Below, in pieces: positions 35,742 to 37,843 of a stretch of 64,000 nucleotides of DNA. Below the pieces are notes generated by a model. It saw nothing but the letters and a program-made list of their open reading frames with translations. It was not told where the DNA came from and did no database searches. Position 1 is the stretch's first letter. The number at the start of each line of letters is the position of its first letter. The translations under genes were made by a program, and so were the position numbers. Source of the DNA: Pyrenula massariospora (lineage: Eukaryota; Ascomycota; Eurotiomycetes; Pyrenulales; Pyrenulaceae); NCBI GenBank assembly GCA_021030905.1, contig JAGFMI010000002.1:1-64000 (forward strand). The letters run 5' to 3'.

Positions 35742-37843
35742 CTATTCCTCCGAGACACTCGCAAATTTCTCGCCCATATCCTGCAAAATTTTCTCGTACT
35801 AATATGAACGTGTCAGGTCTCGTGAATTGCCCGGGGCATAGAGAAGAGCAGATTACCTTCTTACTGATTTCCTCTTCCTCTTCCGGTACCTCGAATTTCA
35901 TGCTCCTTAGCGCATGCTGAATCTCACCCGTACTTTCCCTGACCTTCGCCCAACTCTGTCCCGCTTGAACTGCCTTCTGTGCCTCATCGTGGAACCCTAT
36001 AAAGGCTCTCATCATATACTGCGTTTTCCATAGAGGGCAGAACTGATCATAGTCACTGTACCCATTCTGCTGCAAGAAGTCGTCTTTGAGCATAGCAGCC
36101 ACATCCAGAATGATCTTGTCAGAGTCGCCCAGTGCAGATTTGCCGACTAATTGAACGACTTGATCAAGGTCTTCAGAGTTCGTGAGTAATTCTTTAATGC
36201 GGTCCCGAAGGCGTGGAAATTCAGGGTAGTGTGATTCATAGAATTTGTCAAGGATGGTGTTGTATTTGCTGTAGGAGATGGAGTTATTGATTGACGGGAA
36301 GTGTTTTCGCTGAGCGAGCTTCTTATCTAGTCCCCAGAAGACTTGGACAATACCAAGCGTTGAAGAGGTCACAGGATCTGAGAAGTCACCTCCGGGAGGG
36401 CTGACAGCGCCGACGATGCTGACGCTGCCTTTGCGTTCGGGGCTACCAAGCGTGAGGACCTGGCCAGCTCGTTCATAAAATGAGGCCAGTTTGGCACCGA
36501 GATAGGCAGGGAACCCTTGGTCTGCGGGCATTTCTCCGAGACGGCCAGAGATTTCTCGTAGGGCTTCGGCCCATCGGGAAGAGGAGTCAGCCATCATGGC
36601 GACGGCTTTGCCTTGGTCTCGGAAGTATTCGGCAACGGTTATACCGGTATAAATGGAGGCCTCCCGGGCGGCGACGGGCATATTAGATGTGTTGGCGATA
36701 AGGCATGTGCGCTTCATAATGGGTTCTTTGCGGCCTTCTATCGTAATTGAGAGCTCGGGAAAGTCCATCAAAACTTCAGCCATCTCATTGCCTCGCTCTC
36801 CCTGGATGAATCGTAAGTAAACGCTCTAGGTTAAATTTGGGTGAAAAAGGGACATACACAACTGTATGATCGTAAGCAAACGCTCTGAGTAAATTTTAGA
36901 TTATAGGGTGAACCTACCCAACGTAAACGATGATGTCGCTGTTGGAGAACTTGGAAACAGATTGTGAGATAACAGTCTTCCCACAACCAAAGGCGCCAGG
37001 AATACAGACAGTGCCTCCTTGTACACTAGGGAACAAGGCGTCAAGCACGCGCTGGCCAACGATGAAGGGGGAGTCGGAGGGGAGCTTTTCATTCGATGGT
37101 CGTGGAACACGGACAGGCCAACTGTGCATCATGGGATACTCTGTTTTCTTCCCATTGAACTCAACCTCCAGTATGTTTTCGGCTACTGTATATTCTCCTT
37201 TATCAGCAATCTTGGTAATGGTTCCTCGAACTCTTGGTGGACATAAGACTTTGTGCTCTCTGATTAAGCTATTTTCTTCCACCAACCCCCAAACGTCGCC
37301 TCCAGTAATGTGATCCCCTTTTTTCATTTTCGGCTCGAACTTCCATTTTTTCTTACGGTCTAGAGCTGGGATGGCAATTCCACGAGGAATATAAATACTC
37401 TCGGAGCTGGAGGAGATGGCTTTCAATGGTCGTTGAATGCCATCGTAAATGGTCTCCAAAAGACCAGGGCCGAGCTCGACAGATAAAGGCTTTCCAGTTC
37501 GAACAACAGGATCACCGACGGTAACACCAGCTTGCGGGATGTGAGCATATTTTCCATGACCTTGAAGAGGGCCGAGAAGGTGTACCTGTTTCTTCATAGA
37601 CCTGAATTGTGGCTTTGTCCGCCTCTATCCGGATGACCTCACCAACGAGCTTGTCGTAGCCGACTTTGCACTGCAGATTCGTCAGAAGACATCCTGTAAT
37701 GAGCTGCGTCTACGTACTAGTTCGTACATAGCACAGCCGACCATATTTTCAGCAACGATGACAGGCCCTGATATGGAAAAGATGGAACCTCCTCCGGTCT
37801 CACCATCCTCCAATCCACCTTTCACTTTTGTTGCCGGAGCCAT
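35742..37843 (-). CDS. VMA1: V-ATPase catalytic subunit A (VMA1), with a 4-nt microexon
   Basis: ATP-hydrolysing subunit of the V1 sector that acidifies the vacuole. Exons on the minus strand: 37718-37843, 37586-37670, 36918-37530, 36858-36861, 35857-36801 and 35742-35780; phases agree and give 603 aa, the family length. Landmarks: [27 protein letters not shown], Walker A GAFGCGKT, then [61 protein letters not shown]. The invariant GCGERGNE can only be read if the bases TTGT at 36858-36861 are used as an exon of their own between two 56-nt introns. No VMA intein is present. The end [14 protein letters not shown] is restored by a 76-nt last intron. An ATG 86 codons upstream (38101) is in frame, with no stop between; I chose the start that matches the family. 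Confidence 0.96.
36802..36917 (-). other. VMA1: Twin 56-nt introns flanking a 4-nt microexon in VMA1
   Basis: Reading the minus strand, intron A is 36862-36917 and intron B is 36802-36857, both exactly 56 nt. Their 3' halves are near-identical: AGAGCGTTTGCTTACGATC in A against AGAGCGTTTACTTACGATT in B, both preceded by an AAATTTA block and followed by CATACAG or CATCCAG. The 4 nt between them (TTGT) complete Gly and supply the Cys codon of the invariant VGCGERGNE motif. The two introns are therefore copies of each other. Confidence 0.88.

Follow-up and report, generated by a model that had tools for sequence, protein, structure and literature searches.

Why should the gene for the catalytic subunit A of the V-ATPase (VMA1) carry an exon of four nucleotides between two introns, and why at this place in the protein? 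The origin of new spliceosomal introns has long been an open question, and models of break repair are difficult to test, the original break being seldom known. The new point made here is that the microexon, together with many inferred introns of other fungi, coincides with the homing site of VMA1.

A predicted four-nucleotide exon in VMA1

VMA1 lies on the minus strand of the window, by which we mean the whole stretch of 64,000 nucleotides analyzed; the assembly behind it comprises 37.8 Mb in 33 contigs. The gene is composed as follows (basis: the spliced gene model, unless stated otherwise).

37718..37843, minus strand: exon 1, from the ATG of MAPATK, the same start as in a relative's protein (P0001)
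37671..37717, minus strand: intron 1, 47 nt
37586..37670, minus strand: exon 2
37531..37585, minus strand: intron 2, 55 nt
36918..37530, minus strand: exon 3, ending in ...GTTTACGTTGG, ...YVG(GG)
36862..36917, minus strand: intron I1, 56 nt, GTAGGT...CATACAG, phase 2 in the Gly275 codon, site position 0 (sequence, homology to I2)
36858..36861, minus strand: microexon TTGT, 4 nt, third base of the Gly275 codon plus the Cys276 codon (needed for VYVGCGERGNE and the frame)
36802..36857, minus strand: intron I2, 56 nt, GTATGT...CATCCAG, phase 0 after Cys276, site position 4 (sequence, homology to I1)
35857..36801, minus strand: exon 5, starting with GGAGAGCGAGGC (GERGNEM)
35799..35856, minus strand: last intron, 58 nt (same phase in 16 of 17 long homologous ORFs)
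35742..35798, minus strand: last exon, including the stop

The spliced product has 609 amino acids and contains the domains ATP-synt_ab, ATP-synt_ab_Xtn, ATP-synt_ab_N and ATP-synt_VA_C, which is the set of its best homologues. Among the homologues listed, a protein from a Pyrenula ochraceoflavens MAG is 95% identical over the full length, and the next best match, from Phaeomoniella, is 86% identical. These matches make the host a probable filamentous ascomycete close to Pyrenulales. No second VMA1 copy was found in the assembly, where matches outside the gene are just 25–26% identical. Searches of the window returned no RNA families at the gathering threshold and no tRNAs, and Tandem Repeats Finder detected no array.

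At its 5′ end, the gene is preceded by an in-frame N-terminal extension of 86 codons (38101-37844, minus strand), continuous with MAPATK with no stop between. Among the 120 listed homologues, 52 have a similar start of the MLG type when a loose text match is applied. The real start of VMA1 may lie in this extension, or the gene may have two starts.

On the minus strand, the order at the motif is GTTTACGTTGG, I1, TTGT (36861-36858), I2 and GGAGAGCGAGGC, the splicing of I1 and I2 being read from sequence and frame. VYVGCGERGNE is restored only by joining GG, TTGT and GGA. Skipping of TTGT shifts the frame and leads to an early stop, a stop follows at once when I1 is retained, alone or together with I2, and retention of I2 gives a stop after eight intron codons. 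These results agree with an earlier sequence-only reading of this DNA, which had taken TTGT as a separate exon required for the motif, had placed it between two introns of exactly 56 nt and had predicted that its skipping would shift the frame and leave the subunit non-functional. At 4 nt, TTGT is a very short internal exon needed for the frame, as constitutive microexons are. A working protein needs it, and we saw no productive alternative form, so that the plain reading is a constitutive exon. Intron definition, also proposed in that reading, is the most likely way in which it would be handled, because all five VMA1 introns are short (47–58 nt). The description of TTGT as the smallest possible exon has to be dropped: the available part of PMC4674806 documents a constitutive 1-nt exon in Arabidopsis APC11 and quotes 6 nt as the previous constitutive record.

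The coding context of TTGT (36922-36918 plus 36861-36858, minus strand) is GTTGGTTGT, in which GTTG recurs with a period of 4 nt, equal to the exon length. This repeat could be an ordinary local reason for the 4-nt offset.

I1 and I2 are sister introns

I1 and I2 both have GT-AG ends and lengths like those of the other three VMA1 introns (47, 55 and 58 nt). With their ends trimmed, they aligned with a score of 18, while 3000 pairs of dinucleotide-preserving shuffles gave a mean of -0.8 (sd 3.1) and a maximum of 13. The nine other intron pairs of VMA1 scored between -5.5 and 3. Judged by this alignment, I1 and I2 are homologous. Their kinship, seen earlier as a likeness of the 3′ halves, is thus upheld, but it is not limited to these halves: the alignment spans the whole introns, with a weak and gapped 5′ half. 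An 18-nt core, AGAGCGTTTRCTTACGAT, occurs twice in the window against 0.10 expected (at most 3 mismatches).

36810..36827, minus strand: shared core AGAGCGTTTACTTACGAT in I2, containing the likely branch-point region CTTAC, a putative assignment (core search)
36869..36886, minus strand: shared core AGAGCGTTTGCTTACGAT in I1 (core search)

In the 37.8-Mb assembly, the occurrences of the core without mismatch are those in I1 and I2 only. At 2 mismatches there are two further places, and a reversed control pattern also has two in all. A DNA search of the assembly had the window itself as its sole match. Introner-like elements are present as many similar copies at different gene positions; no further copy of I1 or I2 was found in the assembly, and we rejected an introner family on this ground. 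The pair looks like a local copy.

Measured from the GTTG that precedes each donor, the I1 and I2 copies are 60 nt each. The sequence-only reading had derived the introns from one another, most simply by a tandem duplication of about 60 nt. The homology supports the first part and the frame weakens the second: by arithmetic, if a functional gene with one intron underwent an exact duplication of 60 nt and then lost two introns of 56 nt in splicing, 4 extra coding nucleotides would remain and the frame would be broken. A duplication model therefore calls for a compensating change, which is not needed if an intron copy was inserted.

TTGT spans the VMA1-a intein insertion site

We observed that TTGT spans the VMA1-a intein insertion site (Gly/Cys), a coincidence absent from the sequence-only reading. 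Set against the gene model, the introns stand where a homing element known from the same gene inserts. We take the yeast endonuclease VDE to cut at TGC/GGA on one strand and at GG/GTGC on the other (GG^NTGY^GG), and its overhang would then, with these assumed cut positions, be the exact homologue of TTGT. In the available parts of the literature, the insertion site 'a' of VMA1 inteins is placed at the Gly/Cys boundary of this motif (PMC2814812), and VDE, like other LAGLIDADG enzymes, is described as leaving a 4-bp 3′ overhang (PMC7282813). A literature search that included parts of PMC7282813, PMC2098809, PMC8966425 and PMC6505156 did not find published exact VDE cut positions. VMA1 inteins are listed for Pezizomycotina in PMC5784728, and the portion of this survey at hand scores all its VMA1 inteins as endonuclease-bearing.

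Searches of this genome for the intein and endonuclease domains PF05204, PF14890 and PF05203 found none, PF05203 giving no hit in any control genome either. A past element need not leave a relic in the genome. PRP8 of this genome (G000:C12, about 591600-592772, minus strand; L013, L014) is one open frame of 2364 amino acids that covers the two domains searched; no intein or intron is apparent between them, the position of the intein site being unmapped.

According to the available parts of PMC2814812, spliceosomal introns of this protein show no clustering (p = 0.3909) and are not restricted to conserved sites. One sentence there may mean that spliceosomal introns occur at intein sites, in parts that give no positions. 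Our search of titles and abstracts found no report of clustered introns at the VMA1 intein site.

Frame departures in other fungi

The viral_contigs and genome_contigs collections yielded no fungal DNA with VMA1. As a proxy, we used short homologous proteins, nearly all metagenome ORFs, which we took to be single open frames on genomic DNA. The query was residues 71–275 of the window's VMA1, ending at VYVG, and the best 120 of 2824 matches were all examined. The point at which an ORF leaves the VMA1 sequence was read as an intron start, and the residues that follow gave the phase; for a GT donor, V indicates phase 0, a changed codon followed by K, E or M phase 1, and a stop or Y phase 2. Applied to the window as a control, the rule gives a stop after VYVG and position 0, which is correct. 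The last VMA1 intron served as a second control: of 17 long ORFs, 16 depart with V behind the homologous lysine, and the other one lacks the intron.

Among the best 120 of 2824 matches, 39 ORFs leave the frame at or just after VYVG, a count that is not an incidence, as a query ending at VYVG favors ORFs ending there. Counted from GG/N, their inferred departures fall at eight positions within 9 nt. The position classes, assigned by hand from the printed residues, are as follows.

Position -1 (n = 2): P0179, P0190
Position 0 (n = 10): P0169, P0172, P0178, P0182, P0189, P0213, P0237, P0257, P0265, P0274
Position 1 (n = 2): P0180, P0275
Position 2 (n = 9): P0174, P0194, P0195, P0199, P0203, P0234, P0244, P0254, P0276
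Position 3 (n = 7): P0162, P0197, P0207, P0218, P0227, P0267, P0273
Position 4 (n = 4): P0216, P0217, P0240, P0270
Position 5 (n = 3): P0233, P0259, P0264
Position 8 (n = 2): P0236, P0245

The inferred positions 0–4, which are the span of the overhang, hold 32 of the 39 ORFs, and the remaining seven are at -1, 5 and 8. I1 and I2 of the window correspond to positions 0 and 4. Four of the 39 ORFs read through the intron and continue over 8 or more codons of the next exon; in all four an AG acceptor fits the position inferred from the donor, acceptors at other positions fitting formally as well but mismatching the donor. The introns measurable in this way are 59 nt (P0180), 46 nt (P0195), 61 nt (P0199) and 44 nt (P0275) long.

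At the next intron, after FPE, 72 of the 120 ORFs leave, each with V, that is, in one phase and at one position; this V is part of the text match, and none of the remaining nine ORFs leaves at FPE otherwise. Because the same 120 ORFs show one position at FPE, the spread of positions at VYVG is less affected by the query bias. Around YTG (after SIYTG), four ORFs (P0173, P0201, P0219 and P0260) leave at three inferred positions within 2 nt. Adjacent positions thus also occur away from the VYVG site, in a region that is thinly sampled and that is, to our knowledge, not a known intein site. P0231 departs after NE on a 737-bp contig and P0232, ambiguously, after CGERG on a 963-bp contig, while P0165, P0242 and P0246 end without a departure. 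P0199 and P0217 are near-identical proteins with different positions, a difference that may reflect intron sliding.

Four of the 120 listed full-length homologues have another reading at or right after VYVG (P0022, P0026, P0041 and P0112). The deviant public models read VGAMYTGERG in Cladophialophora psammophila, VGNRCGERG and VGGNEM in Exophiala dermatitidis, and VGCASQL in Emergomyces; P0103 also fell outside the text match, yet it has the normal motif after IYIG. The four deviant models appear to be annotation errors that stem from introns at the VYVG site, where gene predictors can fail. An isolated Cys exon may also be present in Cladophialophora psammophila P0022 (VG-AMYT-GERG), for which no consistent junction was derived.

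Intron presence and position on the tree

The careful tree has 135 rows, namely 117 of the 120 ORFs (P0231, P0232 and P0242 were dropped), 17 longer ORFs with no intron at this site and the window, scored as position 0. It gives 15 changes between intron presence and absence (bootstrap 14–16), of which starred branches force at least 10, and 30 changes between position states, gains and losses being indistinguishable in these counts. The nearest row to the window is P0162, with position 3, in a starred pair. The fast tree, to which 49 reference rows were added (nearly all named) and in which the window was unscored, gives 15 presence changes and 29 position changes. Close to the window, it has a starred clade that contains the intron-free P0127, P0136, P0151 and P0165 together with positions 0 (P0172 and P0189, with Phialophora) and 1 (P0275, with Lithohypha). 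From the ORF ends and the tree, we infer that the VMA1-a homing site has been a place of repeated spliceosomal intron gain, movement or loss in filamentous ascomycetes.

Possible origins of the introns at the VMA1-a site

We read this as a site of recurrent intron gain, the cause of which is perhaps breakage by homing endonucleases. Past endonucleases of VMA1 inteins would have cut at the VMA1-a site, and repair of the breaks would have taken up copies of introns at the two ends of the 4-nt overhang. These introns would then have made the allele uncuttable and would for that reason have been favored. In this genome, a second, sister intron would have been copied at a distance of 4 nt from the first, with an exon of the size of the overhang left stranded between them. 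Taken jointly, a constitutive TTGT at the VMA1-a site, intron turnover there and past intein-endonuclease breaks as its cause have, in our estimate, a little less than an even chance of being right. We are more tentative about recurrent intron gain through such breaks in which the introns would be both scars and immune alleles, and the 4-nt exon would be a fossil of the overhang; this is possible but rather doubtful.

In favor of endonuclease breaks are the eight positions within 9 nt, with 32 of 39 ORFs inside the overhang span and a single position at FPE, and the four of four acceptors that fit the donor-inferred positions. The 15 presence and 30 position changes on the tree point the same way, as do the homology of I1 and I2, found here only, the location of site 'a' at Gly/Cys, and the endonuclease-bearing VMA1 inteins in Pezizomycotina. 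Against them stand the cut bonds, which we presume, the lack of intein domains in this genome and its unbroken PRP8 frame. The GTTG repeat, the variety at YTG, the possible sliding between P0199 and P0217 and the query bias also weigh against such breaks, as does the published test that found the spliceosomal introns of this protein not confined to conserved sites (PMC2814812, in the parts available).

The strongest alternative is an ordinary microexon: one old intron, followed by a 4-nt local duplication or a reverse-splicing slip along GTTG-GTTG, with sliding and loss elsewhere and no endonuclease. The 4-nt period of GTTGGTTGT and the homology of I1 and I2 agree with this, and position 0 of I1 recurs in 10 of the 39 ORFs, including two near Phialophora. 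Shifted positions among close relatives and the three positions around YTG also speak for it. Such an origin is harder to reconcile with eight positions within 9 nt and with the 30 changes of position on the tree, when one phase is kept at FPE (72 ORFs) and at the last intron (16 of the 16 ORFs having it), and an exact 60-nt duplication would break the frame. We consider that it has nearly, though not quite, an even chance. Endonuclease breaks and a labile, sliding or copied intron are about equally likely explanations.

It is improbable that a VMA1 intein became a short intron by acquiring terminal splice sites and shrinking. An intein starts with Cys and the host resumes with Cys, so that a junction could lie anywhere in the Cys codon; the intein site coincides, and 32 of 39 inferred positions are at 0–4 around this codon. 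The conversion would leave unexplained the seven ORFs at positions -1, 5 and 8 and the two sister introns. Moreover, the four measurable introns have just 44–61 nt, no intein-like residues were noticed in them by eye, and the searches of this genome detected no intein domain.

The sequence-only reading had also suggested that TTGT inclusion switches the V-ATPase on and off. Skipping does shift the frame, and a 20-nt microexon switch in Trichoderma (PMC11121469, in part) is a precedent, but every alternative product of VMA1 ends early, which means that inclusion is simply required, and we found nothing regulatory; a switch is very unlikely. An assembly error or a dying gene copy has just as slight a chance, given that I1 and I2 differ from each other, that the rest of the frame is intact and that the protein is 95% identical to that of a relative while other matches in the genome reach 25–26%.

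If endonuclease breaks are indeed the cause, and introns pile up on bonds cut by a known endonuclease, intron gain would become testable in one gene across many genomes and could be re-enacted in laboratory yeast. It would also represent a new route to immunity of a host gene against a homing element.

Comparison with known systems

A likeness to TTGT as an exon is seen in Arabidopsis APC11, which also has a tiny constitutive exon required for the frame. That exon differs in being 1 nt long, from a plant and experimentally shown, and no sister introns are described in the available part of its report (PMC4674806). The 20-nt microexon of Trichoderma Xlr2 is fungal and was overlooked by annotation; it is alternative and glucose-regulated in the account available to us (PMC11121469), whereas TTGT looks constitutive. 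Copied introns in ascomycetes are represented by the sister introns, stwintrons and introner-like elements of Hypoxylaceae, whose authors discuss the recruitment of excised introns to breaks (PMC8469720, partial text). Those elements have copies at many genome places, while none were found for I1 and I2.

Two further cases concern intein sites. The VMA1 map of PMC2814812 places inteins and introns on the same protein, as we do; it differs in reporting no clustering (p = 0.3909), and its available parts give no positions, phases or cause. A fungal PRP8 case, known from a partial account, has an intron adjoining an intein site, slightly downstream of it and with no cause given there; the PRP8 frame of this genome has no sign of such an intron.

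Another parallel is FBA1 of Kazachstania, which has a spliceosomal intron precisely at the inferred cut of the WHO endonuclease and whose authors, in the part of the paper available, cite intron gain at double-strand breaks (PMC7282813). It involves one intron in one clade, with the WHO element beside the gene, whereas VMA1 presents another gene and another element, two sister introns and many inferred positions in many lineages. The FBA1 intron at the WHO cut is a precedent for intron gain at endonuclease breaks as proposed here for VMA1.
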